From the NCBI GenBank assembly GCA_028284905.1, contig JANQQU010000022.1, positions 1-64,000 on the forward strand: a stretch of DNA of 64,000 bases, written 5' to 3'. This DNA is from Calditrichia bacterium (GTDB taxonomy: Bacteria; Calditrichota; Calditrichia; RBG-13-44-9; J075). The translations under genes and the position numbers were made by a program. Positions 8,503 to 58,990 of this stretch are shown piece by piece (position 1 is the stretch's first letter; every line of letters starts with the position of its first letter). The notes beneath the pieces were generated by a model that saw only the letters and a program-made list of their open reading frames with translations, was not told where the DNA came from and searched no databases.

Positions 8503-8521
8503 GATCGGCTCCTGTTAAGCG

Positions 8522-9030: not shown

Positions 9031-9187
9031 CAAATGGGCAAATGGGCAAATGGGCAAATTGAACGAACAACGAATAACAATTATATCATATAACGTGAAC
9101 GCCGAAGATTAAAATCCGCATTCCGCATTCGAACTTCCGCATTCGAACTTCCGCATTCCGAATTCGAACTTCCGCATTCGAACTTCC
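9031..9187. repeat. intergenic tandem word repeats
   Basis: Three copies of the octamer caaatggg (9031-9054), then gaacgaacaacg, and from about 9115 a run of alternating words ccgcattcgaactt and ccgcattccgaattc up to 9187. It matches the element at 4454-4542 in word order. The rest of the 426-bp gap between 8866 and 9293 holds the two divergent promoters and no gene. Confidence 0.7.
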
Positions 9188-10383: not shown

Positions 10384-10544
10384 CCAATTTTTAAATCGCC
10401 GGGATATGCATATATGCCGGCGAAAGCTTCCCTTTGAGATTCCTCAATTTTATCTTATATTTACCCTGCCTTGTGAAACGTTAATTGCTACGGTTGATAG
10501 CATCATCGACCACTGCTGCTGAAGTGTAGAAGAGGAGATTCAGG

Positions 10545-12703: not shown

Positions 12704-12727
12704 TTTAATTCCTTTATCAAAATTCAA

Positions 12728-13312: not shown

Positions 13313-13508
13313 AAAACCTCATCCTTTTCAGAATTCACAAGTAAAAAATGTCATTCAAACATCGAAATTATACGGCTGGATAAATTGGGAGACAAGGGGA
13401 AACTTAAGATGTTGCTGTGAAATACGATTGGTCGGAAAATGTTGAGGATTAAAGCGCCGATGCCGGAGAATTTTACATTCAGCCAGCACCGGTGCGCTAA
13501 AGATCTGC

Positions 13509-16773: not shown

Positions 16774-16781
16774 AAAATATA

Positions 16782-17741: not shown

Positions 17742-17758
17742 TGGTAGCTCGTGAGAAG

Positions 17759-18190
17759 CTATTTGTCCAGCAAAGGTTTGAGTTTGAAGTAGGTGCTATG
17801 ATACCGTTGATATCGTTTAAACGCCTTCTCGTCGAGATGATTCAGGCGCAGCAAATTCATATTGTCTGTCAGGTCGCCCATTTTTACCTGCAATGCCAGG
17901 GAGTTGGTTTTCAGGCGCTCAATATAAGTCGCATAGCTCTCATCATCACGGCGGGTCATACAATCGACACCAGCGATAACCGCTTCGCTGAACCCTTCTT
18001 CACGAAGGTTCTCCAGTGTCCAGTCAGAGTCTTCCACAACATCATGCAGGATCGCGACCATTTTGCTCTCTGTTGTCGGCATCTTCATCATAATGCGCAG
18101 CGGATGTAAAATGTAGGGGGCACCACCTTTGTCCAGCTGATCGGTATGTGCGGTAGCGGCAATTGCCAGTGCACGTTCAATTGTTGCCAA
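17759..18190 (-). CDS. small HD-domain phosphohydrolase (SpoT/MESH1-like)
   Basis: A 143-residue single-domain protein. It shows the hydrolase half of RelA/SpoT proteins: 'AHTDQLDKGGAPYILHPLRI' (His29), the HD pair in 'MVAILHDVVEDSDW' (His49, Asp50) and 'VKMGDLTDNMNLLRL' with the late metal-binding Asp. There is no synthetase domain, so it fits small alarmone hydrolases that remove pyrophosphate from (p)ppGpp, although related stand-alone HD proteins may act on other nucleotides. The start is a TTG (18190) with ggag 8 bases upstream; no ATG fits. It leads a two-gene operon with an alpha/beta hydrolase. Confidence 0.85.
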   Translation of the reverse strand: MATIERALAIAATAHTDQLDKGGAPYILHPLRIMMKMPTTESKMVAILHDVVEDSDWTLENLREEGFSEAVIAGVDCMTRRDDESYATYIERLKTNSLALQVKMGDLTDNMNLLRLNHLDEKAFKRYQRYHSTYFKLKPLLDK

Positions 18191-24400: not shown

Positions 24401-25984
24401 ATGGCAGAAAGATATGATGCAATTGTCATCGGCGGCGGGCATAATGGACTGGTCAACGCCGCATACCTTGCCCGGGCCGGGAAAAAAGTGCTGGTGCTGG
24501 AGCAACGCCATTTGGTTGGTGGCGCGACAGTTACGGAGGAGCTTTATCCTGGCTTCAAGTATAGTGTGTTCTCCTACGTGATAAGTTTAATGCGCCCGGA
24601 AATTATTCGGGAATTAAACCTGCCCGGACATGGACTAACGATTTTACCACTGGAAAGTACGCTGACACCCTTACAAAATGGGGAATATCTTTATCGCGGT
24701 TCGGATCCCCATGAAACCCGCCGGAATATCGCCAGATTTTCCCCCCGCGATGCCGATGCCTATCAGGATTACGGACATACCCTCTTTTTTATGGCGAAAG
24801 CGGTCAAATATATGCTGGGCATAGTACCTCCGGATCCGACCTCACTACATCCGAAAGATATGCTCGGTTTGGCAGCGTTGGGAAAATACCTGACCGGATT
24901 ACGGGAAGATGATATTTACAATCTCACTAAACTGATGACGATGAGTGCTGTCGATTTTCTGGAACAATGGTTCGAAACCGATGTGCTAAAAGCGACGCTC
25001 TCTGCCAGCGGAATTATCGGCACTTTCCTCGGACCACGCTCGCCGGGCACTGCCTATGTATTGCTGCATCACTACATGGGCGAACTGGATGGAAACTTCC
25101 GGGCCTGGGGATTTGCAAAAGGCGGCACTGGTGCAATTGCCGAAGCGATTGCCAGCTCTGCCCGCGCTTTCGGCGCAAAGATTCGTACAGAAGCAAAAGT
25201 GAGTGAACTTTTAGTGAAAAATAACTCCGTGCGCGGAATAGTTCTCGATAATGGTGATGAAATATTTGCCGATACGATCGTTTCCAGCCTCGATCCCTGG
25301 CAAACATTCCTTAATTTACCCCCTAACGGCAGCATGCCGGAAGAATTATTAACTGATATTCGTAAGTTCAAATTCAAAGGCTCTTCCGCAAAAGTGAATC
25401 TGGCCCTGGATGCACTGCCCCAATTCAACTGTAAGCCGGAAAACAGCAATTTCCTTCGCGGGGCAATCTCGATCAGTCCCAGTCTGGATTACCTGGAGCA
25501 AGCCTACGATGATGCCAAATACGGCGACTTTTCCCGCCGGCCCTATATGGATATTATTATTCCCTCGATGATCGATCCGGACATGGCCCCTCCCGGCAAG
25601 CACGTGATGTCCTGCTTCGTGCAATATGCCCCCTATCATTTGCGGGAAGGCAATTGGGAGGATAAGCGGGAGGCGCTGGGGGATGCCGTCGTAAATACGC
25701 TGGCGGAGTATATGCCTAATATTAAGGACATCATCCTGCATCGTCAGGTCGTTACTCCCCTGGATATTGAAGAACGAATTGGATTGAGCCAGGGAAATAT
25801 TTTTCAGGGTGAGTTAAGCCTTTCCCAATTATTTTTTCTGCGCCCGGCAGCCGGCTGGGCGAAATACCGGACCCCATTAAAAAATTACTATCAGTGTGGC
25901 TCCGGCACACATCCCGGTGGTGGCATAATGGGCGCACCGGGCCGACTGGCAGCAATGGAAATTCTTAAGGATGGGGGACATTGA
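24401..25984 (+). CDS. FAD-dependent oxidoreductase, PYROXD2/CrtI-like (copy 1)
   Basis: A 527-residue flavoprotein. It opens with the dinucleotide-binding fold 'DAIVIGGGHNGLVNAAYLARAGKKVLVLEQRHLVGGATVTEEL'. It shares the PYROXD2-type words 'GTFLGPRSPGTAYVLLHHYMG', 'AKGGTGAIAEAIASSAR', 'YLEQAYDDAKYGDFSRRPYMDIIIPSMIDPDMAPPG' and the C-terminal FAD site 'CGSGTHPGGGIMGAPGRLAAMEIL'. The fold resembles phytoene desaturase, but no carotenoid gene is nearby. It is followed one base later by a paralogue and preceded by a GcvT-like gene. I infer that the pair oxidises a small amine or related substrate, with the GcvT-like protein taking the one-carbon unit. aggaag lies 4 bases before the ATG. Confidence 0.88.
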   Translation: MAERYDAIVIGGGHNGLVNAAYLARAGKKVLVLEQRHLVGGATVTEELYPGFKYSVFSYVISLMRPEIIRELNLPGHGLTILPLESTLTPLQNGEYLYRGSDPHETRRNIARFSPRDADAYQDYGHTLFFMAKAVKYMLGIVPPDPTSLHPKDMLGLAALGKYLTGLREDDIYNLTKLMTMSAVDFLEQWFETDVLKATLSASGIIGTFLGPRSPGTAYVLLHHYMGELDGNFRAWGFAKGGTGAIAEAIASSARAFGAKIRTEAKVSELLVKNNSVRGIVLDNGDEIFADTIVSSLDPWQTFLNLPPNGSMPEELLTDIRKFKFKGSSAKVNLALDALPQFNCKPENSNFLRGAISISPSLDYLEQAYDDAKYGDFSRRPYMDIIIPSMIDPDMAPPGKHVMSCFVQYAPYHLREGNWEDKREALGDAVVNTLAEYMPNIKDIILHRQVVTPLDIEERIGLSQGNIFQGELSLSQLFFLRPAAGWAKYRTPLKNYYQCGSGTHPGGGIMGAPGRLAAMEILKDGGH

Positions 25985-25985
25985 G

Positions 25986-27566
25986 ATGAGCTATGACGTG
26001 ATCATTGTTGGCGGGGGGCATAATGGATTGACTGCAGCGGGTGTGCTGGCAAAAGCCGGTAAAAAGGTGCTGCTGCTGGAAAAAAGAGCCCGGGCCGGTG
26101 GGGTTGCTGGCGCTAGTGATGCATTTTCCGGAATGACGGTTAATGCCGGTGCAAATGACGCCGGATTGCTGCTTCCTGATGTCCAGGAAAAATTAAACCT
26201 GGAGAGTCATGGCCTCCAGTGGCTGGAAAACAGCGTAGCTGCCTTTGCACCACAGAGTGATGGGGAAGGGTTAACGCTCTGGAAAGATATTGCCAAAAGT
26301 CAGGAAGAGATTGCCCGCTTCTCAGCTGCCGATGCGGAAAAATTTCCGGCCTTTGTAGAACAGATGAACCGCTTCGGCGCTATTTGGCGCCATTTGTTAA
26401 CCCTGACGCCGCCATTGCCGAAGAGCATTAACTGGCACGATATCCCTGGCTTGCTCGGTGCAGGCATAAAACTGAAAAAGCTCGGCAAAAAAGATATGAT
26501 GGCCTTTTTACGGGTGTTGCCGATGCCAGTGCAGGATTTTCTTGATGAATGGTTTGAAAGCGATATTCTGAAGGGCTTGTTGGGCAGTGCAGGCGTTGCC
26601 GGCAGTATGCTCGGCCCGGTGAGCGCCGGTAGTTTTCTAATAATGCTTCATCACTACAGTGGCGCGGAAAACGGTGGTTTTCGTTCGGTGCGTTTTGTTA
26701 AAAAGGGAATGGGGAGACTCATTGCTTCTCTGAAAGATGCCGCTCGCAGCAATGGCGCAGAAATTCTCTGCGACGCCCCGGTCTCCCGTATTGTTCTCGA
26801 TGATGAAGACAAAGCAATCGGTGTAGAATTAGCTAGTGGTGAAGTATACCAGGGGAAAATTATTCTTTCCAACACCAATCCGCGGCATACCCTGCTGGAA
26901 ATGGTTGGGCCGGAAGCCCTGCCGCTGAAAACGGTACAGCGACTGAACAATGTCCGCTATCAGGGAGTTACCGCCCGCCTGGATATTCACTTAAAAAATC
27001 TGCCGGTTTTTCCCTCAGCTAGTGGCGATAATGAGCGCATCAGCGGATATATCGTTATTTGCCCCTCACTGGAATATCTCGAACGAGCTTATGATGATGC
27101 AAAGTATGGCAGAGTATCCCACCAGCCATATTTGAGTATCGTTATACCAACACTGCTCGATAATGCTCTGGCACCAAATGGTCAGCATTTAATGAGTGTG
27201 ACAATGCAGTATGCGCCCTATGCACTTCGTAAGGGAGATTGGCAGAAAGAGGGCAAAAAACTGGAAAAGTTGATACTTGATACCCTGGAAATATATGCAC
27301 CCGGTTTGGGAAAAGAGATTGAAGAAACCCACTTGCGAACACCAGCTGATTGGGAAGAAGAATATGGGTTACCGGAAGGGAATATATTTCATGGCCAAAT
27401 GGGGCTGGATCAACTCGCTTTTATGCGTCCGATTCCCGGTTATCCGCAGTATCATACTGCGATTGAAAATTTGCTGCTTTGTGGGGCCGGAACCCATCCC
27501 GGAGGTGGGGTGACCGGCGCACCGGGATATAACGCTGCCCGGGAAGCGCTTCGCTTGTTGAAGTAA
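25986..27566 (+). CDS. FAD-dependent oxidoreductase, PYROXD2/CrtI-like (copy 2)
   Basis: A 526-residue paralogue of the upstream gene, aligning over the full length: 'DVIIVGGGHNGLTAAGVLAKAGKKVLLLEKRARAGGVAGASDAF', 'GSMLGPVSAGSFLIMLHHYSG', 'VKKGMGRLIASLKDAARSNGAEIL', 'YLERAYDDAKYGRVSHQPYLSIVIPTLLDN' and 'LLCGAGTHPGGGVTGAPGYNAAREAL'. The start ATG at 25986 follows the stop of copy 1 by one base and has ggggga 8 bases upstream. Tandem copies in one operon suggest two subunits or two successive oxidation steps. It is part of the operon that also holds the GcvT-like gene at 23101. Confidence 0.88.
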   Translation: MSYDVIIVGGGHNGLTAAGVLAKAGKKVLLLEKRARAGGVAGASDAFSGMTVNAGANDAGLLLPDVQEKLNLESHGLQWLENSVAAFAPQSDGEGLTLWKDIAKSQEEIARFSAADAEKFPAFVEQMNRFGAIWRHLLTLTPPLPKSINWHDIPGLLGAGIKLKKLGKKDMMAFLRVLPMPVQDFLDEWFESDILKGLLGSAGVAGSMLGPVSAGSFLIMLHHYSGAENGGFRSVRFVKKGMGRLIASLKDAARSNGAEILCDAPVSRIVLDDEDKAIGVELASGEVYQGKIILSNTNPRHTLLEMVGPEALPLKTVQRLNNVRYQGVTARLDIHLKNLPVFPSASGDNERISGYIVICPSLEYLERAYDDAKYGRVSHQPYLSIVIPTLLDNALAPNGQHLMSVTMQYAPYALRKGDWQKEGKKLEKLILDTLEIYAPGLGKEIEETHLRTPADWEEEYGLPEGNIFHGQMGLDQLAFMRPIPGYPQYHTAIENLLLCGAGTHPGGGVTGAPGYNAAREALRLLK

Positions 27567-44442: not shown

Positions 44443-45642
44443 ATGGTCTCAGAAAGATCCGAAAATACTGCAAGTTTCGATTTGGTCATTGTGTGTCCGC
44501 ATTTAGGAGATGGGGGCTCTCAGCGGGTAATAACAACTCTGGCCAACAATTGGAACCGTTCCGGAAAACGAATATGTGTCATAACGCTCTTTCGGGATAA
44601 AGCGGTCTATACACTGGATAAAGGCGTCGCACTTACCAATGTGCAACAGGACTATTCCCATAAACTGAATCCGTCATCAGTCTCAATCTTTCAAAGAATA
44701 AAAGGCGTATTGTGGGGCGGACTGCGATTGATTCGGTTGGATGCGCGCTTCGGAAAATATTATCACTATTACAATCTGATAATTTATCTACGAAAAACGT
44801 TGAGCCGGTATAAATCAGACGTTGTGCTGTCTTTTATCGGATCGACAAATATAATAACGATTCTCGCCTGCCGGGGATTAGGACGCAAGGTAGTGATCTC
44901 CGAGAGGAACGATCCCGGACGCCAGCGTCTGGAGCAGCCCTGGGATCGGTTACGGCCAATTTTATATAAGCGTGCGGATATCGTTACTGCCAATACAATG
45001 CATGCCCTGGAAACAATGCAGCGGTATGTGCAATCGGAAAAACTGGTATTTGTCCCTAACCCATTACTGCCGAAAAGAAGCATGAATGATGTGCAGATGA
45101 TTTCGGAAATCAAGGGGCCTTTTATCCTGGCGGTAGGGCGACATCATCCGCAAAAAGCGCAGGATATTCTTTTACGGGCATTTCAGTTATTACCGAAAAC
45201 AATGGCTCACTGGCAGCTGGCATTGATTGGTCAAGGAGAATTGACAAGCCAGTTGCAGGAGCTCGCCCGGGAACTGGGTATTGCTGAAAGAGTGCTTTGG
45301 CCGGGGCAGGTAGAAAATCCATTTCCATACTATCGATCTGCATCAATATTTGCTTTGCCATCCCGGCATGAAGGTATGTCCAATGCTTTATTGGAAGCTA
45401 TGCACTGCGGTCTGCCAGCGATTGTGAGTGATGCATGCCCGGGCTCTCTCGAGCTGGTAAAAAATGATATAAACGGTTTAGTAACACCGGTTGATAATCC
45501 ACAGGCACTGGCAAAAGCCATTGTGCGTCTGGCTGAAGATGAAAATTTGCGAAACTCTCTGGGAGCGGCTGCGAAGGCATATACCGCTGATTACGAATTG
45601 ACGACAGTTCTCAAGAAATGGGAAACGGTGCTGGGGATATGA
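44443..45642 (+). CDS. GT4 family glycosyltransferase (first cluster gene)
   Basis: A 399-residue GT-B enzyme. N-terminal domain: 'FDLVIVCPHLGDGGSQRVITTLANNW'. The C-terminal donor-binding half starts 'GPFILAVGRHHPQKAQDILLRAFQLLP' and has 'LGIAERVLWPGQVENPFPYYRSASIFALPSRHEGMSNALLEAMHCGLPAIVSDACPGSLELV', the E-x7-E signature of GT4 enzymes. It should add a nucleotide-activated sugar to a lipid or glycan acceptor on the cytoplasmic face. It leads twelve plus-strand genes, and its stop overlaps the next start by 4 bases (ATGA). The N-terminus resembles capsule/slime enzymes that act early in chain building. Confidence 0.92.
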   Translation: MVSERSENTASFDLVIVCPHLGDGGSQRVITTLANNWNRSGKRICVITLFRDKAVYTLDKGVALTNVQQDYSHKLNPSSVSIFQRIKGVLWGGLRLIRLDARFGKYYHYYNLIIYLRKTLSRYKSDVVLSFIGSTNIITILACRGLGRKVVISERNDPGRQRLEQPWDRLRPILYKRADIVTANTMHALETMQRYVQSEKLVFVPNPLLPKRSMNDVQMISEIKGPFILAVGRHHPQKAQDILLRAFQLLPKTMAHWQLALIGQGELTSQLQELARELGIAERVLWPGQVENPFPYYRSASIFALPSRHEGMSNALLEAMHCGLPAIVSDACPGSLELVKNDINGLVTPVDNPQALAKAIVRLAEDENLRNSLGAAAKAYTADYELTTVLKKWETVLGI

Positions 45643-47543: not shown

Positions 47544-48428
47544 ATGGAAAACGAACGGATTCAGTCAAAGAACAGACCTTATCGGATTGTCTATATCGCC
47601 GGTGCCGGTAGAAGTGGCTCAACACTGTTAGGACGGCTGCTGGGTGGACATCCACAGACATTTTTTCCCGGAGAACTGAAAGTTTTCTCGCCAACGAAGA
47701 AATTGCGGGGAAAACCGGCACGGGGAAACCGTCGATGCGGCTGCGGTGTGAATGCCAGCAATGAGTGCCATTTCTGGGAAAGCGTCGCAGCTTACCTGCA
47801 AGAGCATCATCAGCTCGGATTGTGGACGAACCTTGAAGTTCACAATGGGGATGCTCTCACATTCCGCAATCATAACCTTGCTTTGTATGATGCAATACAT
47901 GCCATTAGCAAAGCGCCCTTCATCATCGATTCCTCAAAATCTCATAGTCGCCTGGAAAAGTTGATAGCCAGTCAACTCTTTGATATTCGCGTGATTTACC
48001 TGCAGCGAAATCCTTATGGGGTTGTGTATTCCAATGTCAAACTTGGTCGGGATCTTCGTTACTATTCCCGGCATTATGCCCAAAATTACCATTACACCCG
48101 CAAGCTGCTAAAAGGGCATGATCATTATTATGTGCGTTACGAAAAGCTGGTTGAAAATCCTGAGAAAACGCTAAAAGATATCATGTGCTGGCTCGGCGTA
48201 CCATATGATTCCGCACAGCTGAACTGGAGAGAATCGACTTTTCATATTATTGCCGGAAATAAACCCCGGATGATAAATGACCGGCTAATTGCGCCGGACA
48301 ACAGCTGGCGGAAACAACTGACGATCCGAGAGAAAATACATATTAGCCGCCGCTCTTTGCCCGGTTACATGGCGAACATTTGGCGCTATGAAAAAAAGCC
48401 TGCCATCTTGCAACGGAGGGCTTTATGA
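47544..48428 (+). CDS. sulfotransferase family protein (copy 1)
   Basis: A 294-residue cytoplasmic protein. It has the PAPS-binding P-loop-like segment 'IAGAGRSGSTLLGRLLGGHP' (19-38). The 3'-phosphate motif is 'VIYLQRNPYGVVYSNVKLGRDLRYYSRHYA', and 'HYYVRYEKLVENPEKTLKDIMCWLGVPY' ends the core. A Cys-rich insertion 'RCGCGVNASNECHFW' occurs near residue 65. It would transfer sulfate from PAPS to a hydroxyl of a glycan or lipid. A second, clearly related copy lies at 50930, with the same insertion and order of motifs. The stop overlaps the next start (ATGA). Confidence 0.88.
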   Translation: MENERIQSKNRPYRIVYIAGAGRSGSTLLGRLLGGHPQTFFPGELKVFSPTKKLRGKPARGNRRCGCGVNASNECHFWESVAAYLQEHHQLGLWTNLEVHNGDALTFRNHNLALYDAIHAISKAPFIIDSSKSHSRLEKLIASQLFDIRVIYLQRNPYGVVYSNVKLGRDLRYYSRHYAQNYHYTRKLLKGHDHYYVRYEKLVENPEKTLKDIMCWLGVPYDSAQLNWRESTFHIIAGNKPRMINDRLIAPDNSWRKQLTIREKIHISRRSLPGYMANIWRYEKKPAILQRRAL

Positions 48429-49806: not shown

Positions 49807-50919
49807 ATGAGAATTGTATATCTTGCCAATACACGTATTCCTTCCCGAAGGGCAAATAGCAAGAACGTAATGAAGATGTGCCAGGCGTTGGCGCATAACG
49901 GTCATAAAGTCGTTTTGATGAATTATGATTACCCGGATGTTGAAAAAGATGTTGCAGACGTGTATGATTTTTACGGTGTAGATAAATGTTTTCCTATCAA
50001 GCTGCTGCCACGCAGAGGACAATCTTCCCGAATCGACTATCGCACCCGGATAAAATGGTTCGTGCGAATGCAGCGGCCGGATTTAATAATACTGAGAGAC
50101 CACAGTCTCCGTTACGATCCTGCACGTATGGGCATCCCGATTGTGCTCGATGCGCATAAGCTTATTTACAGCCCGAGAGATATCGCCCCATTCCGGAAAT
50201 TGCTGGCGAGCAATCATTTTACCCGGATGATAACGAATTGCAACGCATTGCGCAGCGCTTACTTAAGGAATTATCGGATTCCGGAAGAAAGGATTCAGGC
50301 GTTGCATAATGGCGCGGATCTGCCGAAAAATGTCCAGCCATTACGGCTAAAGGAGAATGGGCGTTTGCAGGTGGGTTATGTCGGCCATCTTTATCCCGGA
50401 AAGGGGATGGAAATTATCAGCGCGCTGGCGCCCCGCTGCCCCCATGTCGATTTCCATGTAGTCGGCGGCACTACTGCCGATGCGGCTTATTGGCAAGAAA
50501 AATTGAAAGATGCCGCAAATGTCCGCTTTCATGGTTTCCAGCCGCATCAGGAAGCGGTGCGTTGGCAATTAACGATGGATGTGCTTTTGGTGCCCTGCCA
50601 GCGGGAAGTTGCCTCAGCCGGCGGGGGCGGATTAAATATTGGCGATTGGATGTCTCCGATCAAAATCTTTGAATATATGGCAGCCGGAAAAGCGATCCTC
50701 GCTTCCGATTTGCCGGCAGTGCGGGAAATTCTCAGTCACAATAAAAATGCATTCCTTTGTGCACCGGACGATATCGAAGCCTGGATGAAGGCTCTGAAAT
50801 TTCTCGCTGACCACCCGGCGCGAAGAAGCTCACTGGGAGCAACCGCCCGGGAACACTTTCAACAAAATTATACCTGGCAGGGGCGTGCAAAGCAATTACT
50901 TGCCGGACTAGCAAACTAA
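49807..50919 (+). CDS. GT4 family glycosyltransferase (second)
   Basis: A 370-residue GT-B enzyme. N-terminus 'IVYLANTRIPSRRANSKNVMKMCQALAHNGHKVVLMN' and a donor domain with 'LQVGYVGHLYPGKGMEIISALAPRCPHVDFHVVGG', 'VRFHGFQPHQEAVRWQLTMDVLLVPCQ' and 'SPIKIFEYMAAGKAILASDLPAVREIL', where the glutamate of the GT4 signature is kept (E in IFEYM). It follows the HTTM-like gene by one base and is one of two glycosyltransferases in the cluster, so the product glycan probably holds at least two transferred sugars, or one enzyme starts and the other extends it. Confidence 0.92.
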   Translation: MRIVYLANTRIPSRRANSKNVMKMCQALAHNGHKVVLMNYDYPDVEKDVADVYDFYGVDKCFPIKLLPRRGQSSRIDYRTRIKWFVRMQRPDLIILRDHSLRYDPARMGIPIVLDAHKLIYSPRDIAPFRKLLASNHFTRMITNCNALRSAYLRNYRIPEERIQALHNGADLPKNVQPLRLKENGRLQVGYVGHLYPGKGMEIISALAPRCPHVDFHVVGGTTADAAYWQEKLKDAANVRFHGFQPHQEAVRWQLTMDVLLVPCQREVASAGGGGLNIGDWMSPIKIFEYMAAGKAILASDLPAVREILSHNKNAFLCAPDDIEAWMKALKFLADHPARRSSLGATAREHFQQNYTWQGRAKQLLAGLAN

Positions 50920-50929: not shown

Positions 50930-51841
50930 ATGAAAAAATTACCAACAATCATTTATATCGTCGGGCGGGGGCATAGCGGATCCACTTTGTTGGATTTGTT
51001 GATTAGCTCTCATTCAGCAACAATCAGCGTTGGAGAAATAAAATCCTTTTCGCAGAAGAAAAAGGACAAGGGACGTCATCTTCTGGAAGAACCCTGCACT
51101 TGCGGCGCGCCGAAAATTCGCGATTGCAAATTCTGGACAATGGTAAATGACATTTTACAGAAAAACGATGGACTTACCCTGGATGCACTCGATGTCTATC
51201 ATGATGATCCGGAAACATTCAAAAAACATAACCGGGCGCTGTACCGGGCAGTTCAGGAAGTTAGCGGTAAAAACTATATTGTCGATTCTTCCAAGGACAT
51301 TAAACGGCTTGCCTGGTTGGTGCGCTGCGGCTGCTTCGATATTCGGCCTGTTCACCTGATGCGCAATCCACTCGGGGTCATTAATTCTCAAATTCGACTG
51401 GGACACGACTGGGTCGACCATACCCGGAAATACACGGCTGTTACCATGCAAACCCGTCGTTTACTACGGGACGTCCAATACTGGAAAATCCGTTATGAAG
51501 ATCTGGCCGGCAACCCGGAAAATACTATTTCAGAAACTATGCGCTGGTTGGGGCTATCCTATGAAAAGAGCCAGCTAAATTGGCCAACACATCTGCATCA
51601 CAACGTTAATGGGAACCGGATGCGCTTTAAGCGGAACAAGGAAATTAAAGTGGACAACAGCTGGCAAAAGAGTTTGTCCCGCAGGCAGAAATTGCGGATT
51701 CGCTGGATGACCTTCCCAACGAAAATGACTGGCACCTGGTTGTATGAAAGCTGTCCGGCGTTGTGGAATCTGAACGCTGGCGAGAAAAGGCGCTTACACC
51801 TACGAACCACCGTCGCAAATTTTATGACGAATCGGTCGTAA
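50930..51841 (+). CDS. sulfotransferase family protein (copy 2)
   Basis: A 303-residue paralogue of the protein at 47544. 'IYIVGRGHSGSTLLDLLISSH' (PAPS loop, about 8-28), the same Cys insertion ('EPCTCGAPKIRDCKFW'), 'YIVDSSKDIKRLAWLV', 'DIRPVHLMRNPLGVINSQIRLGHD' and 'WKIRYEDLAGNPENTISETMRWLGLSYEKSQLNW' all align. Retention of both copies in one cluster suggests sulfation at two positions or on two acceptors. The gap after this gene (177 bp) is the largest within the cluster and may hold an internal promoter. Confidence 0.88.
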   Translation: MKKLPTIIYIVGRGHSGSTLLDLLISSHSATISVGEIKSFSQKKKDKGRHLLEEPCTCGAPKIRDCKFWTMVNDILQKNDGLTLDALDVYHDDPETFKKHNRALYRAVQEVSGKNYIVDSSKDIKRLAWLVRCGCFDIRPVHLMRNPLGVINSQIRLGHDWVDHTRKYTAVTMQTRRLLRDVQYWKIRYEDLAGNPENTISETMRWLGLSYEKSQLNWPTHLHHNVNGNRMRFKRNKEIKVDNSWQKSLSRRQKLRIRWMTFPTKMTGTWLYESCPALWNLNAGEKRRLHLRTTVANFMTNRS

Positions 51842-52018: not shown

Positions 52019-54568
52019 ATGTTTAACAGGGATCGTTCGAAATCTTCGAATGAAAACGATATCTGGCGTTTTCTTCTCATTGCGCTGCAACTGGGTCTGG
52101 TTTTATACGTCATCGATCTTTTCCATTTGGAAGAAGATCACGGGTTAAATTCACTTTTACCGATCATTTTTGGTGGGTTTATTATTCATAGCTGGCTGCC
52201 GAAGAACTGGCGGCCACCATTCTTTTTTCTGCTGACCCTAACCGCGATTCTATTTTTATTTGGTGCAAAATATGGCAGTATCCTTATTGGTATCGGTTTA
52301 GGCTTAATTGCTATCTGCCACCTCCCGTTAAATTATTGGCTGCGAATTGGACTGATTCTGGTTGCCGTTAGTGTTCTCGCTGCTTTCCGTAGTGGCTGGA
52401 TGCCTTCCGACTGGGCGCCTTTCATTATGCCAATTCTTGGCTCGATGTTTATGTTCCGCTTGATCATTTATCTATATGACCTCAAGAACGAATCTATTCG
52501 TCCGGCCTTTTGGCAGCGCCTAAACTATTTTTTTATGCTGCCCAATGTTTGCTTGCCGCTTTTCCCGATTATCGATTACGTCAAGTTTCATCGCAGTCAC
52601 TACAGTGCAGACGCTTATGAAATTTACCAAAAGGGTATCCGCTGGATGTTTCGCGGAGTTACCCATTTATTGATTTACCGGGTCATTTATTACTACATCA
52701 TACCTTCGCCAACCGAAGTTAATGACCTGAATGGCCTGGTCCTTTTGATGATGTGCAGCTTCATGCTTTATACCCGGGTGTCCGGACTTTTTCATCTGAT
52801 AACAGGGATTCTTTGTCTGTTTGGCTATAATATGCCCCCAACCCACAATTTGTATTTCCTCGCTTCCGGCTTTAACGATTTTTGGCGACGAGCCAATATT
52901 TACTGGAAAGACTTCATGATGAAAGTCTTCTATTACCCCTTATTCCTCAAGATGCAGCGCTTCGGCCAATATCGCGGGATTATTTTTACCATGCTGCCGT
53001 TATTTGTGATTAGCTGGCTCTTCCATTCTTATCAATGGTTTTGGATTCGCGGCAGCTTTCCTATTACACTTATCGACGGCATATTCTGGTGTTTCTTTGG
53101 ACTAATGGTTTTAACCAATTCGCTAATGCAGGCTAAATGGGGACGCCGCCGCAGCCTGGGGAAAAAACGCTGGTCATTTGGTCGGGCACTACGCCTTTCC
53201 CTGCAAACGGTTAGCATGTTTTCTCTGATGTGCTTCCTCTGGGTTTTTTATACCAGCAACTCTATTCCTGATTGGCTGGCCCTGCTTTCCAAAGCTGCCA
53301 ATTATGAAACCATTGACATCGTCCGTATTGTCTCTGTCTGGATTTCGGCAGTTGCTGTCGGCGTCGTTTTTCAGTATCTCAATAGCCAGGATGTTTCCTT
53401 ACCATCGCTGAAAAATGTGATTGTTTTTCGTCCGGCGGTATTAACCAGCGTTTCAGCATTTCTGTTGTTGCTGGTTGGCATTCCCCAGGCATCTGCTGTT
53501 TTTAATCCGCAGACCCACGATTTTATCGAGTCCATCCGGATGAATCGCCTGAACAGCCGGGATGTGGAGCTGTTTGAAAAGGGATATTACGAAAGCCTGA
53601 TGGGCACCAATAAATTTACCTCCCAGCTTTGGCGGGCGCAGCTCCAGGAACCGCAGGACTGGAAGCTGAATCTCCGGGAAAATGGACTCGCGGCGCCAGT
53701 GGAAGACATGCGTTTAACCACTTTGAATCCCAATATGGATCACCACTATAAGCGTGCCAAATTTCGCACCAATCAACATGGTATGCGGGACAAGGCATAT
53801 GATAAAGTTAAACCGGCATCTACCTACCGAATAGCCTTGTTGGGCGGATCCCACGTTATGGGCCCGGGCGTGCGTGATGAAGACACCTATCAATGGATGT
53901 TGGAAGACCAACTCAATCTGGACAGCGGGGAAAAAGAATTTGCCCAATACGAAATTTTAAATTTCGCCAAGTCTTCCTGGATTTCCTTCCAGCATCTTTT
54001 GCATTGCCAGAAGCAGGTCGTCCAGTTTGCACCTGATGCCGTTTTTTATGTCACCCATTTTCCGGAAGAAATTAAGACGGTTGAACGATTGACTGACTGC
54101 ATCATGAACAGCGGTCGCATCGACTTCCCATATTTGGCTGCCATTGCAGACAGCGCGGGTGTGCATAAAGACATGGCTGAATCCGAAATACAACGGCGCT
54201 TAAAACCTTATGCCGGTAAAATTGTGCAATGGACCTATCAGCAATTTGCAGATTTATGTAAGGCGAGCAATGCCATGCCGGTTTGGGTATATCAGCCATT
54301 ACCAAAAACCAATAAGCTGAAAGAACCTGAATCGAAAATTGTTGAACGGCTAAAAGGATATGCAGTAACGGCTGGTTTCGAAGTGCTGATTGACCTTTCC
54401 GGCGTATTTGACGGGCGGGAGTACAGTCGCCTGCAATTGGCCCCATGGGATAAACATCCGAATAAAATCGGCCATCAATTGATTGCGGAGCGATTTTATC
54501 AAGAATTAATCAATAACAGCGCTTCTTTAAAAATGGGCGTTCAACCGGTTAAGGCCGAAAGGAAGTAG
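52019..54568 (+). CDS. MBOAT O-acyltransferase fused to SGNH hydrolase-like domain
   Basis: An 849-residue protein. Residues about 10-500 are a multi-pass MBOAT-like membrane domain. It has 'GFNDFWRRANIYWKDFMMKVFYYPLFL' (about 281-307, the FW.R.....W segment of DltB/AlgI-type enzymes) and 'VISWLFHSYQWFW' (about 331-343), with the MBOAT histidine near residue 336. Residues about 540-840 are an SGNH/GDSL-like domain, with 'IALLGGSHVMGPGVRDEDTY' (Ser near 610) and 'PWDKHPNKIGHQLIAERFY' (Asp and His, about 810-820). In the Dlt system DltB (MBOAT) and DltD (SGNH-like) are separate. Here they are one chain, directly before a carrier and a ligase gene. It would transfer the acyl group from the carrier to a glycan outside the membrane. 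Confidence 0.87.
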   Translation: MFNRDRSKSSNENDIWRFLLIALQLGLVLYVIDLFHLEEDHGLNSLLPIIFGGFIIHSWLPKNWRPPFFFLLTLTAILFLFGAKYGSILIGIGLGLIAICHLPLNYWLRIGLILVAVSVLAAFRSGWMPSDWAPFIMPILGSMFMFRLIIYLYDLKNESIRPAFWQRLNYFFMLPNVCLPLFPIIDYVKFHRSHYSADAYEIYQKGIRWMFRGVTHLLIYRVIYYYIIPSPTEVNDLNGLVLLMMCSFMLYTRVSGLFHLITGILCLFGYNMPPTHNLYFLASGFNDFWRRANIYWKDFMMKVFYYPLFLKMQRFGQYRGIIFTMLPLFVISWLFHSYQWFWIRGSFPITLIDGIFWCFFGLMVLTNSLMQAKWGRRRSLGKKRWSFGRALRLSLQTVSMFSLMCFLWVFYTSNSIPDWLALLSKAANYETIDIVRIVSVWISAVAVGVVFQYLNSQDVSLPSLKNVIVFRPAVLTSVSAFLLLLVGIPQASAVFNPQTHDFIESIRMNRLNSRDVELFEKGYYESLMGTNKFTSQLWRAQLQEPQDWKLNLRENGLAAPVEDMRLTTLNPNMDHHYKRAKFRTNQHGMRDKAYDKVKPASTYRIALLGGSHVMGPGVRDEDTYQWMLEDQLNLDSGEKEFAQYEILNFAKSSWISFQHLLHCQKQVVQFAPDAVFYVTHFPEEIKTVERLTDCIMNSGRIDFPYLAAIADSAGVHKDMAESEIQRRLKPYAGKIVQWTYQQFADLCKASNAMPVWVYQPLPKTNKLKEPESKIVERLKGYAVTAGFEVLIDLSGVFDGREYSRLQLAPWDKHPNKIGHQLIAERFYQELINNSASLKMGVQPVKAERK

Positions 54569-54692
54569 GGGAGCGGCTTTGTCGCAAAGCGCTGGATACA
54601 AGGGCTACAATGTAAATTCAACAGATAAATTGCAGGGCGTTAGGCACTGCACGAAAATTTTTTTCAGTACTTTTATGAAAGGATGATGAATT

Positions 54693-54956
54693 ATGGCCAC
54701 TAACACTCAAACAATCAAAGACACAGTTAAGAATTACCTGATGACCGAATTCTTGCCGGGCGAAGATCCCAACGATTTAACCGATACCACACCACTGGTA
54801 ACCGGAGGGATTCTCGATTCAATTTCAACTTTTAAACTGGTCGGGTTTCTGCACAGTAAATTCGATGTAAAGCTGAATGCGAACGAAATTGCCAATCACC
54901 TCAACACGCTGAACGACATCACCGATATCGTCCAGGCTAAACAGGGGGTGGCATGA
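54693..54956 (+). CDS. acyl/peptidyl carrier protein (proline carrier, DltC/PltL-like)
   Basis: An 87-residue four-helix carrier protein. The phosphopantetheine attachment site is 'GGILDSISTFKLVGFL', with Ser43 in DSI. The preceding 'DTTPLVTGG' and following 'FDVKLNANEIANHLNTLNDITDIV' match standalone peptidyl carriers. ATGA overlap couples it to the adenylation gene. It should carry the L-prolyl, then pyrrole-2-carboxyl, thioester. A separate phosphopantetheinyl transferase must come from elsewhere in the genome. Confidence 0.93.
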   Translation: MATNTQTIKDTVKNYLMTEFLPGEDPNDLTDTTPLVTGGILDSISTFKLVGFLHSKFDVKLNANEIANHLNTLNDITDIVQAKQGVA

Positions 54957-56458
54957 CCCGCCGATTGGAAAATTTGCTCGGCGATGCGCACCAACTATAT
55001 CCTGATCGTGTTGCAATTGAAGGACCGGATGAACAGTCGGTTTCTTATGGGAAATTTGCCGGTGCTGTTGCAAAGATTGCAGCATTGCTGCAAGCACAAG
55101 GTATTGGCAACGGCGACCGGGTAGGTATTTATGCCCATAAGTCAATTAACACTGTTGCAGCAATGTTTGGTATTATGACAGCCGGTGCAGCATATGTGCC
55201 GGTTGATCCCGATGCGCCCATTCGTAGAAATGCCTACATCTTTAGTGATTGCCAAGTGAAAGCAGTCTGGGCAGAGGATCGCTTACTTTCCCGGTTGCAG
55301 GGCGCTTTTCCGGCGGAGCAGGTCGGACGGGTGTTGCGAATCGACGATGTCAGCGGCATTTGCTTGCAGGAAATTCAATTTCCCGATACTGTGCGTTCGG
55401 ATGATCATCTTGCTTACATTCTTTATACTTCCGGTTCTACCGGACAGCCAAAAGGTGTGATGATTTCCCATGAAAACGCTTTGAGTTTTGTCGATTGGTG
55501 TAGCGACACCTTCCAGCCGATGCCCGAAGATCGTTTTTCATCCCATGCGCCATTCCATTTTGATCTTTCAATTCTCGACCTGTATGTCAGTTTCAAGCAT
55601 GGGGCAACACTCGTGCTCATCGATGAAGTGACCGCAAAACAACCGGCTCCGCTGGCGGCATTCATTGCCGACAGACGGATTACGGTCTGGTATTCCGCGC
55701 CGTCGATTCTCAGCATGATGACGCAGTTTGGATGCATGGAAACCCACAACTATGATGCACTACGCCTGGTGCTTTTTGCCGGAGAAGTGTTTCCGGTAAA
55801 ATATCTCCGTTCCCTTAAGCAGATCTGGCAACAGGCGAGATATTTCAATTTATATGGCCCAACGGAAACCAATGTCTGCACTTATCATGAGATTCCTGCG
55901 GATATTCCTTTCGAGCGAAACGAACCATATCCGATTGGGAAAAGCTGTTCCCATGTCGATTGTCAAATGCTGACGGGCGAGGATGGCAGCGGGGAGTTGG
56001 TTGTACGTGGAGCTTCAGTGATGAACGGCTATTGGCGGCTGCCGGAGCGCAGTGCCAAATCCTATCATATTGACGATAAAGGTGCAGCCTGGTATAAAAC
56101 CGGCGACCTGGTACAGATTGATACTGCCGGAGATTTTATCTTCCTCGGACGGCTCGACCGAATGGTGAAACGGCGGGGCTATCGCATAGAATTGGGAGAG
56201 ATAGAAGCGGCACTCTATCGACATCCGGCAATCCTGGAAGTTGCCGTTGTTGCCGAGTCGGTTGATGAAGAGCTGACCATTACAGCCTTTATTAGCACTG
56301 CTGCCGAAGAAAAGTTATCACTGATTAAGCTGAAGCAGTTTTGTGCAGATCACCTTCCGCTGTATATGATGCCGGACCGCTTCAATTATCTGGACGGTTT
56401 GCCAAAAACTTCTACCGGTAAAGTAGATTATCAGCAGCTCAGCCTGCAGGAGGCGTAA
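54953..56458 (+). CDS. L-proline--carrier ligase (free-standing adenylation domain, PltF-like)
   Basis: A 501-residue adenylation enzyme. Core motifs: A3 'YTSGSTGQPKGV' (158-169), A4 'FHFDLSILDLY', A5 'YGPTETN' (301-307), A7 'WYKTGDL', A8 'RMVKRRGYRIELGEIE' and A10 'PKTSTGKVDY' with catalytic Lys490. Aligning the pocket to GrsA gives D204, L205, L208, Y247, L274, A276, L300, V308, C309, K490, i.e. D-L-L-Y-L-A-L-V-C-K. To my knowledge this is the code of free-standing L-proline activators in pyrrole pathways (PltF, RedM, CloN4 type). It would make prolyl-AMP and load the neighbouring carrier protein. The start overlaps the carrier stop (ATGA). D-alanine ligase (DltA) is the alternative, but the code argues against it. 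Confidence 0.9.
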   Translation: MTRRLENLLGDAHQLYPDRVAIEGPDEQSVSYGKFAGAVAKIAALLQAQGIGNGDRVGIYAHKSINTVAAMFGIMTAGAAYVPVDPDAPIRRNAYIFSDCQVKAVWAEDRLLSRLQGAFPAEQVGRVLRIDDVSGICLQEIQFPDTVRSDDHLAYILYTSGSTGQPKGVMISHENALSFVDWCSDTFQPMPEDRFSSHAPFHFDLSILDLYVSFKHGATLVLIDEVTAKQPAPLAAFIADRRITVWYSAPSILSMMTQFGCMETHNYDALRLVLFAGEVFPVKYLRSLKQIWQQARYFNLYGPTETNVCTYHEIPADIPFERNEPYPIGKSCSHVDCQMLTGEDGSGELVVRGASVMNGYWRLPERSAKSYHIDDKGAAWYKTGDLVQIDTAGDFIFLGRLDRMVKRRGYRIELGEIEAALYRHPAILEVAVVAESVDEELTITAFISTAAEEKLSLIKLKQFCADHLPLYMMPDRFNYLDGLPKTSTGKVDYQQLSLQEA

Positions 56459-56459
56459 A

Positions 56460-57608
56460 GTGGATTTTAACTTATCGGAAGAACAGCAATCTCTGCGCGA
56501 GGAGATAATCCGCTTTGCCCGGAAAGAACTTAATGAAGGCGTTATCGAACGGGATCGTGCACAATATTTCCCGCATGATCTCTGGATGAAATGTGGTGAA
56601 ATGGGTTTGCAGGGATTGCCCGTGCCTGTCGAATATGGCGGCTCAGGACTGGATCCACTGACCACGGCGATCGCTATGGAAGCATTGGGATATGGTTGCG
56701 AAGACGGCGGTTTAACGTTTGCAATCGCGGCCCATCTGCTTGCTTGTGTTGTGCCGGTTTGGAAGCACGGTAGCGAAGCGCAAAAGAAACGCTACTTGCC
56801 CGGCCTCTGCAATGGCGGGTTGATTGCCGTAAATGGTATTACAGAAGCAGCGTCCGGTTCCGATGTTTTTTCCATGGCAACAACAGCGATGGCTACAGAT
56901 ACCGGCTATATGTTGAATGGCAGTAAAACTTTCAGCTCCAATGGCCCGGTTGCCGATCTGGCCCTGATCTATGCCAGCACAGATGCGGAGAAGGGCTATC
57001 GTGGCGGAATTAGCGCCTTTTTGGTTGAAAAAAATACCCCGGGGTATCGTTCCGGGCAGCGCTTCGAAAAAATGGGATTGCGTACCTGCAGCATTGGTGA
57101 ATTGGTGCTGGAAGATGTTCAGGTCCCGGCAGACGCGATGCTCGGAGAAATCGGCACCGCTGCCGTAATCTTTGCCGAGTCGATGGCCTGGGAACGGATC
57201 TGCCTTGTCGCCTGCCATGTTGGAACGATGGAACGATTACTGGAGCAAGCGATCAATTATGCCCGCACCCGAAAAACCGGCGGGCAGCCGATTGGTAAAA
57301 TGCAGGCAATTTCGCATCGCATTGCCGATATGAAAATTCGACTGGAAGCAACCCGTCTGTTGGTGTACCGGGCTGCTTCTCGTCTGGGTGACAGTTGGGA
57401 GATAGATCTGGACGCCGCCATCGCTAAAATACATGCCAGCGAAGCACTGGTTAAAACCGCCATGGATACCATGCAGATTCTTGGTGGCTACGGATTTATG
57501 GTCGATTATGGCGTGGAAAGAGTGCTGCGCGATGCGATGGCGAGCACTATTTATTCCGGCACTTCGGAGGTGCAACGGAATATTATTGGCCGTTGGTTGG
57601 GGCTTTAG
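56460..57608 (+). CDS. prolyl-carrier protein dehydrogenase (acyl-CoA dehydrogenase family, PltE-like)
   Basis: A 382-residue flavoenzyme of the acyl-CoA dehydrogenase fold. FAD and fold motifs are 'NGITEAASGSDVFSMATTA', 'NGSKTFSSNGPVADL', 'AINYARTRKTGGQPIGKMQAISHRIADM' and 'QILGGYGFMVDYGVERVLRDA'. The usual catalytic Glu of MCAD-type enzymes is Ser366 in 'IYSGTSEVQ'. A glutamate occurs at the alternative helix-G position, E245 in 'SMAWERICLV', as in isovaleryl-CoA and prolyl-carrier dehydrogenases (CloN3/PltE/RedW). This fits oxidation of prolyl-S-carrier to pyrrole-2-carboxyl-S-carrier. The GTG start has ggagg 7 bases upstream, inside the end of the ligase gene. Together with 54693 and 54953 the three-step pyrrole module is complete. 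Confidence 0.88.
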   Translation: MDFNLSEEQQSLREEIIRFARKELNEGVIERDRAQYFPHDLWMKCGEMGLQGLPVPVEYGGSGLDPLTTAIAMEALGYGCEDGGLTFAIAAHLLACVVPVWKHGSEAQKKRYLPGLCNGGLIAVNGITEAASGSDVFSMATTAMATDTGYMLNGSKTFSSNGPVADLALIYASTDAEKGYRGGISAFLVEKNTPGYRSGQRFEKMGLRTCSIGELVLEDVQVPADAMLGEIGTAAVIFAESMAWERICLVACHVGTMERLLEQAINYARTRKTGGQPIGKMQAISHRIADMKIRLEATRLLVYRAASRLGDSWEIDLDAAIAKIHASEALVKTAMDTMQILGGYGFMVDYGVERVLRDAMASTIYSGTSEVQRNIIGRWLGL

Positions 57609-57655
57609 AAAACAACAGTGCGTCAACCGGCATATTTAACAAGGAGGTTTATCAA

Positions 57656-58990
57656 ATGAAATCCATTCCCTTAAAATCCGATGTTGTTGTTATTGGTGGT
57701 GGCCCTTCCGGCAGTACTGCCGCAAATGCACTTGCCCAGGCAGGATATGATGTCGTTTTGCTGGAAAAGGCGAAACATCCCCGGGAAGTGGTTGGAGAGA
57801 GCATACTGCCCTTCGTTTGGAAATACACTGACCTGCTTGGCGCAACGAAGGCACTACAAAAAATGCGCTTTATGGAGAAATCCGGCGGTACGACTTTCTG
57901 GAACAATCAACTAACGCAAATGACTTTCCGGGATTTTGACTTTCAAACCCCGGCATTGCATGTGGAAAGAAATATTTTCGATGACATTTTACTTCGAACA
58001 GCAGAGCAAAAAGGGGCCAGGATTTTTGAGGAAGTGATTGTAAAAGACCTCCAGCTGAACGGTTATGACAATCAGGATGTTTTCTATTTTGATACGCTCA
58101 ATGGAAAATCAGGAAAAATTAGCTGCCGTTATCTCGTTGATGCCAGTGGCCAGGCTGCCCTGGTTGCGAAAAAACTTGGCTTCCGGGAATATGATAAAGA
58201 CCTGCGCTTTATGAGCATTTGGGGATATTTCAAGGAAAGCGATTATGTTGCTTTGGGAGGTGATGTTCTCCCGTTCTCACAGCGATATGAAACACCACCG
58301 ACTACCGGCATCTATCAAATCGGGGAATGGGGATGGTGCTGGCAAATTGTACAGAATGACCAGGTGAGTGTCGGTCTGGTATTATCTCCGGAGCAATTTA
58401 GCGAGTTTAAATTGCAGGATGGCAATTTGGAAGAGCGCTTTCTCAGTGCTTGTAGAAAAGTGCCCTTGCTTTCGGATATGCTAAAATATGACACGCTTAT
58501 TCCCGGATCAGTGCGGGCTATTCGCGACTTTGCCTACTACCCGCGGGAACTGGCTGGCAAAGGGTGGTTTCTGACCGGAGATGCAGCAGCGTTTGTCGAT
58601 CCGATTAACTCCGCCGGAGTGCTGGGGGGCTTTTATACCGGTTATATGGCTGCAATGGCAATCGACGATTCGTTGAAGAACAACAAAAATCGGGATTATG
58701 CCGTGGAAAGATTCTCGGAATTATTAAGAGGGCGTATGGCGGTCTATCGTCTTTCCGCTTTGCCGGTTGGTGTTAATAGCTATCAGGAAATGTATCCTTA
58801 TGCGCTAAGCTGTCTGAAACAGATGAGCGATCTTGAAAAGGAATTAATTTATACCCAGATGATATTGATTAACCGGACAGAAAATCTCGATATCATTTAT
58901 CAGCTTGATCCTGATTTCCGCAGACTGACATCGAAGAAATACACTCTTCTGGATGAGTTGCATTTTCCCGCTTCCAGCCCGGTTGTCTAA
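57656..58990 (+). CDS. FAD-dependent halogenase-like oxidoreductase
   Basis: A 444-residue single-FAD protein. It has 'VVVIGGGPSGSTAANALAQAGYDVVLLEKAKHPREVVGES', the fold and 'VGES' of flavin-dependent halogenases, and 'RYLVDASGQAALVAKKLGF' and 'GDAAAFVDPINSAGVLGG'. Lys75 in 'EKSGGTTFW' may be the halogenase lysine. The halogenase WxWxIP signature reads W-C-W-Q-I-V (227-232): two Trp and Ile kept, Pro replaced by Val. This could be a pyrrole halogenase (PltA/Clo-hal role) or an oxygenase of the same class. An aaggagg site precedes the ATG at 57656. It is the last gene of the cluster; halogenation at this step is a hypothesis. Confidence 0.8.
   Translation: MKSIPLKSDVVVIGGGPSGSTAANALAQAGYDVVLLEKAKHPREVVGESILPFVWKYTDLLGATKALQKMRFMEKSGGTTFWNNQLTQMTFRDFDFQTPALHVERNIFDDILLRTAEQKGARIFEEVIVKDLQLNGYDNQDVFYFDTLNGKSGKISCRYLVDASGQAALVAKKLGFREYDKDLRFMSIWGYFKESDYVALGGDVLPFSQRYETPPTTGIYQIGEWGWCWQIVQNDQVSVGLVLSPEQFSEFKLQDGNLEERFLSACRKVPLLSDMLKYDTLIPGSVRAIRDFAYYPRELAGKGWFLTGDAAAFVDPINSAGVLGGFYTGYMAAMAIDDSLKNNKNRDYAVERFSELLRGRMAVYRLSALPVGVNSYQEMYPYALSCLKQMSDLEKELIYTQMILINRTENLDIIYQLDPDFRRLTSKKYTLLDELHFPASSPVV

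Follow-up and report, generated by a model that had tools for sequence, protein, structure and literature searches.

A carrier-fed MBOAT-SGNH cassette that most likely exports pyrrole-2-carboxyl esters

Positions 52019-58990 of a 64,000-nucleotide stretch of a Calditrichia bacterium (contig JANQQU010000022.1, assembly GCA_028284905.1; the whole stretch is hereafter the window) encode an MBOAT-SGNH fusion acyltransferase (P0001), a free-standing carrier (P0002), a proline-type adenylation enzyme (P0003), a prolyl-type dehydrogenase of the acyl-CoA dehydrogenase (ACAD) fold (P0004) and a halogenase-family flavoprotein (P0005), which most likely form a carrier-fed, Dlt-like machine exporting pyrrole-2-carboxyl esters. 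We consider it probable that the genes are a self-contained envelope-acylation cassette in which proline is converted to a pyrrole-2-carboxyl group on the carrier and delivered as an ester outside the cell. The initial annotation of the locus, made from the sequence without database searches, had proposed that a Dlt-type transferase is joined here to a proline-to-pyrrole carrier module, and the adenylation pocket, the dehydrogenase tree, the predicted transferase fold and the recurrence of the genes all agree with that proposal. The five open frames were confirmed in one direction on the forward strand, and Pfam returned the expected PP-binding, AMP-binding, acyl-CoA dehydrogenase and Trp_halogenase families. 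The ATGA overlaps reported for the set are confined to the carrier/ligase junction (at 54953), the other three junctions being gaps of 124, 1 and 47 bases.

P0003 aligns over its whole length with the solved L-proline ligase 6o6e (352 bits), which we take to be PltF. The 138-residue pocket stretch scores 124 bits against 6o6e, 73 bits against a second L-proline ligase (7thn) and 60 bits against DltA. At the specificity positions, presumably those of GrsA practice, P0003 is identical to 6o6e in 9/9 (D-L-L-Y-L-A-L-V-C) and DltA differs, as judged by eye on the alignment. The pattern D-L-x-Y-x-A-L-V-C is kept in 46 of the 49 ligase frames scoring at least 150 bits in the surveyed loci (described below), the window and a Microvirga relative, with the full window code DLLYLALVCK in 28 of those 46; the remaining three are one fragment and two distant, unrelated ligases that do not belong to the cassette. 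By its pocket, P0003 reads as a proline-specific free-standing ligase, as had been proposed, and at the level of sequence the alternative of a ligase for another amino acid did not come true. LgrA was rejected as the closest ligase, its 404 bits being the sum of two domains (194 + 208 bits), as was an assignment to the exosortase A-associated ligases (TIGR03098, 264.4 bits vs a cut-off of 592.35). The carrier P0002 matches PF00550 at 22.4 bits (cut-off 20.8), and its G..DS motif is kept in all 57 carrier frames of at least 55 bits from the surveyed loci and the window.

The two top NCBIfam models for P0004 are PigA (NF053553, 442.6 bits) and RedW (NF045652, 407 bits), and its best three matches in the PDB are 4irn (362 bits), 6cxt (312 bits) and 5zw0 (308 bits), labelled respectively as prolyl-ACP (acyl carrier protein) dehydrogenase, butyryl-CoA dehydrogenase and L-prolyl-carrier dehydrogenase. 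We take these structures to be AnaB, Bmp3 and PigA. A maximum-likelihood tree of 54 rows, made after five near-identical Mesorhizobium rows had been dropped, separates 32 cassette enzymes and 12 reference enzymes from 10 ordinary ACADs (four of them annotated as isovaleryl-CoA dehydrogenases) by a 100/100 branch; just three of the 12 references (AnaB, Bmp3 and PigA) are both structurally solved and assigned to a known pathway. P0004 lies inside a 27-row clade made up of cassette enzymes only (100/99), and its highest identity in the tree is 67%, to the enzyme of a Gemmatimonadota cassette. The cassette rows require three label changes on this tree, so the alliance with the transferase may have formed more than once. 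A catalytic Glu is named for AnaB and Bmp3 in the part of PMC10849742 drawn on here. In 40 of 43 rows, Glu occupies the corresponding position, 245, and the site where ACADs usually carry Glu reads Ser; two fragments and one broken frame are the exceptions, and a further fragment, counted among the 40, has a doubtful Glu column. The PDB alignment, the position of Glu245 and the tree rule out an ordinary acyl-CoA dehydrogenase among those compared, and the earlier assignment of P0004 as a prolyl-type enzyme is upheld at the level of sequence.

Related modules were seen outside the cassette. In the window's own genome, L126 (C67:80000-97000, frames 4841-8347) holds a carrier, a ligase whose code, DMFFIGMGCK, is unlike that for proline, and a prolyl-clade ACAD sharing 44% identity with P0004; genes resembling those of nonribosomal peptide synthetases (NRPSs) lie alongside, with multi-domain ligase frames at C67:66-81 kb. 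The same genome also has, in what by eye seems to be an exopolysaccharide cluster (L125, C26:137000-156500; frames 7478-9151, 9460-11184, 12023-13318 and 16446-17897), two ACAD-like genes together with another proline-type ligase, which has the code DLHYLALVIK and shares 47% identity with P0003. On a Pseudohalocynthiibacter plasmid (L034:7564-11741), a carrier, a prolyl-clade ACAD, a methyltransferase and a ligase with the code DIFFIGSMCK lie by YjbH/YjbF polysaccharide genes, with MBOAT absent among the annotated neighbours; this is perhaps a related module for another acid.

P0001 gave no Pfam match at E <= 0.01 and a single phmmer match in the PDB, at E 0.3. Its AlphaFold2 model, built from 61 sequences, has a mean predicted local distance difference test score (pLDDT) of 90.8 and a predicted template modelling score of 0.88, and Foldseek ranked DltB (8jem) first, then HHAT and PORCN, then SGNH esterases. 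Re-examination of these matches with VIA-align superposed model residues 39-424 on DltB (Z 19.8, root-mean-square deviation (rmsd) 5.2, 368 aligned), 601-842 on TesA 5tif (Z 16.2, rmsd 2.7, 178 aligned) and 542-831 on CgnD 8a2n from crocagin biosynthesis (Z 20.8, rmsd 3.5, 253 aligned), the last being the best match of the second half. The fusion named in the initial annotation is therefore borne out in the predicted structure, which has a DltB fold followed by an SGNH esterase fold. In an alignment of 83 long rows (82 fetched sequences and P0001), the presumed catalytic residues of both halves are invariant or nearly so (Table 1), and the linker motif GYYE is whole in 78 rows, with Tyr523 in 82/83 and Tyr524 in 83/83; the motif opens a low-confidence stretch of the model (mean pLDDT 51 over 521-530). 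In Dlt and Pat systems an acyl-Tyr of an FXYXXF motif ferries the group from MBOAT to SGNH protein, as described in the part of PMC12148441 used here. The FXYXXF pattern occurs outside the linker in 16 of the 83 rows, in P0001 at residue 304, within the MBOAT half.

A genome collection was scanned with P0001 and its Microvirga relative, aligned as the query; from the 213 relatives found, 78 loci were kept (these and the other loci are cited by L numbers). Of the 78 flanks, 54 hold a carrier, 44 a proline-type ligase and 40 a prolyl-type dehydrogenase; all three occur together in 38 loci, among them 30 of the 36 loci with at least 4 kb on both sides, so that the partners seen in the window recur beside MBOAT-SGNH genes elsewhere. 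The 38 full cassettes come from Pseudomonadota (25, of which seven are Mesorhizobium), Rhodothermota (3), Gemmatimonadota (3), Acidobacteriota (2), Hydrogenedentota (2), Planctomycetota (2) and Verrucomicrobiota (1). The commonest order is MBOAT-carrier-ligase-dehydrogenase on one strand (23 as read, and three more blurred by stop-to-stop frame starts); on a plasmid of Microvirga sp. VF16 the cassette genes are present and divergent from the transferase. Tandem MBOAT-SGNH genes or pieces, two or three in number, were seen in L038, L040, L045, L048, L052, L063, L084 and L112, with two carriers in L084; one acyl donor may serve several tandem transferases.

Since this survey began from the transferase, linkage was tested independently in 249 genomes, an even sample of a single phylum (the one to which the genome holding L091 belongs). 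Among them the transferase occurs in 8 (E <= 1e-60), the ligase in 8 (E <= 1e-110) and the dehydrogenase in 10 (E <= 1e-100); transferase and ligase occur together in 6 (hypergeometric p 2.5e-9, relatedness not corrected), and in all six a ligase gene is found no further than 3 kb from a transferase gene. Control windows, 20 of 20 kb from five genomes of the same phylum and unmatched to the loci, gave 0/20 for the ligase, carrier and MBOAT models and 1/20 for the ACAD model. The transferase was found in none of 39 other genomes of the window's own phylum at E <= 1e-15, which together with the tree suggests that the cassette was acquired horizontally in this lineage.

The following course would fit these findings. 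To judge from its pocket and family, the adenylation enzyme would activate L-proline and load it on the carrier, and the ACAD-fold enzyme, by its family, would oxidise the prolyl thioester to pyrrole-2-carboxyl-S-carrier. The flavoprotein, which the window shares with some of its relatives, may act on the ring as a halogenase or hydroxylase. On the evidence of fold, invariant residues and gene linkage, the MBOAT half would accept the acyl group on the cytoplasmic side from its carrier, much as DltC supplies DltB. The group would then cross the membrane, probably by way of a Tyr ester on the GYYE linker, and reach the Ser in the SGNH half of the same chain. This half would esterify a hydroxyl on an acceptor outside the cytoplasm, for which a surface glycan is the likeliest candidate.

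Table 1. Predicted features of the cassette and neighbouring genes in the window
Feature	Position	Strand	Basis
MBOAT-SGNH fusion acyltransferase P0001, 849 aa	52019..54568	+	open frame; halves by structure
MBOAT half, residues about 34-456	52118..53386	+	extent of DltB, PORCN and HHAT matches
His336, presumed MBOAT catalytic His	53024..53026	+	83/83 rows; role from DltB/PatA (PMC12148441, part)
GYYE linker motif, residues 522-525, with candidate acyl-Tyr shuttle Tyr524	53582..53593	+	proposed role
SGNH half, residues about 600-842	53816..54544	+	SGNH esterase matches
Ser611, presumed SGNH nucleophile	53849..53851	+	83/83 rows
Asp811-x-His813, presumed SGNH block V	54449..54457	+	Asp811 82/83, His813 83/83
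Free-standing carrier P0002, 87 aa	54693..54956	+	PF00550
Ser43, presumed phosphopantetheine site (GGILDSI)	54819..54821	+	sequence
Free-standing proline-type adenylation enzyme P0003, 501 aa	54953..56458	+	pocket code DLLYLALVCK
Predicted prolyl-carrier dehydrogenase, ACAD fold, P0004, 382 aa, GTG start	56460..57608	+	NCBIfam, PDB, tree
Glu245, presumed catalytic base (MAWER)	57192..57194	+	aligned with Glu of 4irn, 6cxt and 5zw0
CmlS/PltA halogenase-family flavoprotein P0005, 444 aa, halogenase or monooxygenase	57656..58990	+	PF04820
Context: GT4 glycosyltransferase	44443..45642	+	best NCBIfam model PglH 148.7 bits, cut-off 600
Context: sulfotransferase-family protein	47544..48428	+	PF13469
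Context: GT4 glycosyltransferase	49807..50919	+	Pfam
Context: sulfotransferase-family protein	50930..51841	+	PF13469

Several observations weigh against this reading. P0004 stays below the equivalog cut-offs of its two top models (500 bits for PigA, 650 for RedW), and AnaB, its best solved relative, reportedly stops at pyrroline. The partner ligases of two of the 12 reference ACADs (L034 and L008) do not have the proline code, so that membership of the dehydrogenase clade is by itself no proof of proline. The carrier scores best with an ornithine-lipid ACP family (NF052616), at 101 bits for a cut-off of 130, and reaches only 17.2 bits with DltC. In the 249-genome profile two of the eight transferase genomes have no ligase and two of the eight ligase genomes no transferase. 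The FXYXXF shuttle motif of DltX and PatA is in the linker of 0/83 fusions, unlike DltX (a separate DltX-like small gene was not sought), and GYY is also found in two of the three readable SGNH-only proteins (of four) from the window's own genome, so that the linker Tyr is put forward as a shuttle only as a hypothesis. A model of glycosyltransferase family 4 (GT4) built from four sequences, two from the window and two from Microvirga, has no match in 21 of 30 full cassettes.

This last result bears on the acceptor. The initial annotation had placed the ester on an exported glycan, and the survey did not bear this out: GT4 matches lie near only 9/30 cassettes (6 of them Mesorhizobium) and in 1/20 controls, GT2 and sulfotransferase models of one sequence each match 0/30, and among 116 crudely called neighbour proteins of 12 loci, scanned with Pfam, the commonest glycosyltransferase family has 12 members. 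The acceptor could be a lipid, a protein or a small (perhaps glycosylated) exported molecule rather than a polysaccharide, the chemistry being otherwise as proposed; we hold this to be possible though doubtful. The varied surroundings of the cassettes are in its favour, as are LPCAT3, HHAT and PORCN among the structural matches of the fusion, since MBOAT folds of these kinds also acylate lipids and proteins, and CgnD as the SGNH half's top structural match. Glycosyltransferases upstream in the window, and a Wzy_C protein of the O-antigen-ligase family with apparent glycosyltransferases (by eye) near the Microvirga plasmid cassette, argue against it. The portions of PMC10143770 and PMC13122637 used here propose MBOATs as the enzymes that acylate sugars on aeruginosin-family peptides, again in its favour, whereas according to the corresponding portion of PMC12148441 the SGNH proteins that work with characterised bacterial MBOATs have envelope polymers as their targets. 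A glycan acceptor is plausible. Both upstream sulfotransferase-family genes of the window lie close to glycosyltransferases.

The ring that is exported was judged partly from the tailoring genes. P0005 matches PF04820 at 80.5 bits and the CmlS model at 167.8 bits, far below its cut-off of 900; it keeps the Lys and reads WCWQIV in place of WxWxIP, both of which we take to be halogenase motifs. The halopyrrolyl group suggested for this locus is at most a possibility with WxWxIP incomplete, and from its sequence P0005 may be a halogenase or a monooxygenase. Its closest relative in the survey, in L107, adjoins an MBOAT-SGNH gene and is also without the Pro of WxWxIP. The 1191-aa frame of L107 is probably no fusion: by eye, its first part seems to be spurious stop-to-stop sequence, and the real protein has about 440 aa. 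Halogenase-family flavoproteins flank the transferase in 8/78 loci, with Lys and WxWxIP both present in L056, L093, L096, L109 (two genes), L110 and L115 (one of two genes, the second having Arg in place of Lys), and the gene in L084 is cut off. L165 has carrier, ligase, dehydrogenase and halogenase in the order of the window, with halogenase motifs complete by eye, and the transferase elsewhere in the same genome (L094). Between carrier and ligase lie a Rieske oxygenase in L056 and an O-methyltransferase in L062. The tailoring genes point to an aromatic ring finished on the carrier. A gene of the Na+/H+ exchanger family adjoins halogenase and cassette in two phyla (L096:4300-5601 and L109:8068-9507).

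If the dehydrogenase instead performed a single two-electron oxidation, as in the AnaB reaction, a pyrroline-carboxyl group (a cyclic imine) would be exported. AnaB provides the nearest solved structure, and three Microvirga cassette enzymes are sister to it in the tree (99/93); the main cassette clade of 27 rows, with the window's enzyme, stands apart from the AnaB branch (100/99). Flavin halogenases with Lys and WxWxIP occur in cassette loci, and known enzymes of that kind act on aromatic pyrroles. For AnaB and Bmp3 alike, the part of PMC10849742 at hand names pyrrole formation. We consider a pyrroline unlikely, and infer that the exported group is at the pyrrole oxidation state.

The carrier, ligase, dehydrogenase and flavoprotein might also make a diffusible pyrrole metabolite, with MBOAT-SGNH a separate O-acyltransferase using acetyl-CoA. 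ACADs of the clade do lie beside genes of NRPS or polyketide synthase type, with MBOAT absent among the annotated neighbours (L035, L122 and L123), and MBOAT-SGNH is without a flanking ligase in 34/78 loci, many of them on short contigs. The four genes are, however, linked across phyla in varied surroundings and in the 249-genome profile, and nine of the 14 ligase-free loci checked genome-wide have a ligase elsewhere in the genome, each with the proline-type code (9/9). An all-against-all comparison of frames of at least 110 aa from 42 loci (six near-identical Mesorhizobium loci excluded) found, beyond the four genes, the halogenase family in 7 loci, and frames shadowing the core genes or running on their reverse strand, only clusters of 3-4 loci, and thus no common further enzyme that would use the acyl carrier. 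These small clusters are mostly from Accumulibacter kin, and one common to L032, L051 and L072 resembles an exopolysaccharide sugar transferase by eye. On this balance a diffusible product is distinctly improbable. Among the other five of the 14 genomes, those of L053 and L106 have a different AMP-ligase beside the transferase. MBOAT-SGNH genes adjoining AMP-ligases unlike the proline type were noted at L053:12808-14520, L106:1552-3372 and L054:3483-5954, and the platform may export other acids too.

That the locus is a Dlt system proper, placing D-alanine or another small amino acid on a surface polymer with the ACAD incidental, is extremely improbable and was rejected: although carrier, ligase, MBOAT and SGNH protein are the same kinds of gene and DltA models give P0003 290-300 bits, the cut-offs for DltA (TIGR01734, 289.8 vs 559.85 bits) and for P0002 as DltC (TIGR01688, 17.2 vs 52.35 bits) are widely missed, the pocket is that of the proline ligase and not of DltA, and the dehydrogenase is present in 30/30 well-flanked ligase-bearing loci.

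The cassette likened here to Dlt shares with it a ligase, a free carrier, a DltB-fold MBOAT with His336 and an SGNH-fold partner, and by analogy its acyl donor would be carrier-bound rather than an acyl-CoA. It differs from Dlt in its proline-type rather than D-Ala pocket, in a dehydrogenase that would remodel the acyl group, in having MBOAT and SGNH in one chain with no separate DltD, and in being carried mostly by Gram-negative phyla. With the type II pyrrole pathways, presumably those of PltF/PltL/PltE, PigI/PigG/PigA, Bmp1/Bmp3/Bmp4 and AnaC/AnaD/AnaB, it has in common a free-standing proline ligase, a discrete carrier, a prolyl-carrier dehydrogenase and sometimes a flavin halogenase, and it fits such carrier modules except at the PigA and RedW cut-offs. 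Those pathways pass the acyl group to an assembly line or a condensing enzyme, whereas the constant partner in the cassette is a membrane MBOAT-SGNH fusion.

Systems without a carrier offer further parallels. PatA/PatB and AlgI/AlgJ/AlgX likewise transfer an acyl group from MBOAT to SGNH protein across the membrane and esterify an envelope polymer; PatA/PatB-type pairs are two proteins that acetylate from acyl-CoA without a carrier and have a C-terminal FXYXXF shuttle, and OatA-type enzymes unite a membrane acyltransferase and an SGNH domain in one polypeptide, the former being AT3 rather than MBOAT and using acetyl-CoA rather than a carrier (all from the part of PMC12148441 drawn on here). 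The cassette, in contrast to the PatA/PatB type, has one chain, a dedicated carrier and the GYYE linker. Aeruginosin-family MBOATs also occur with nonribosomal-peptide-type chemistry, and in the parts of PMC10143770 and PMC13122637 used here they are proposed to place hexanoyl-type groups on a glycopeptide, with no pyrrole acyl donor and no mention of an SGNH fusion. The same part of PMC12148441 divides polymer acylation into two kinds, one by an MBOAT working with a separate SGNH protein and the other by AT3-SGNH fusions. Dlt, which moves D-alanine, is its carrier-based MBOAT/SGNH system, and the remaining pathways of that type are presented as having no similar carrier; the cassette fits neither kind. 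Since Dlt features (ligase, carrier, separate DltD) and PatA/PatB features (motif, two proteins) both fail, its working is described as Dlt-like and not as Dlt. No pyrrole acyl group moved by an MBOAT was found among the listed open-literature matches, which did not cover subscription papers or outside preprints.

The chances seem to us about even that the cassette represents a widespread, undescribed class of envelope modification, in which a one-chain, carrier-fed MBOAT-SGNH protein with a GYYE Tyr shuttle sets heteroaromatic esters, perhaps halogenated, hydroxylated or methylated in some lineages, on extracytoplasmic polymers. If the proposal is true, this would be a second carrier-fed system, one that builds and exports an aromatic heterocycle and extends bacterial surface chemistry, and a module that is a hallmark of natural products would be tied to envelope biology, decorating the cell surface. 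A large and recognisable gene set, easily misread as a cryptic NRPS-like cluster, would gain a testable function, and the fused transferase with its conserved linker Tyr offers a compact system for studying how acyl groups pass through membranes.

Promoter and terminator counts are about equal to those of shuffled sequence. Elsewhere in the window, at 24401-27566, a GcvT-like protein is followed by paired FAD-binding, phytoene-desaturase-like proteins, as judged by eye.

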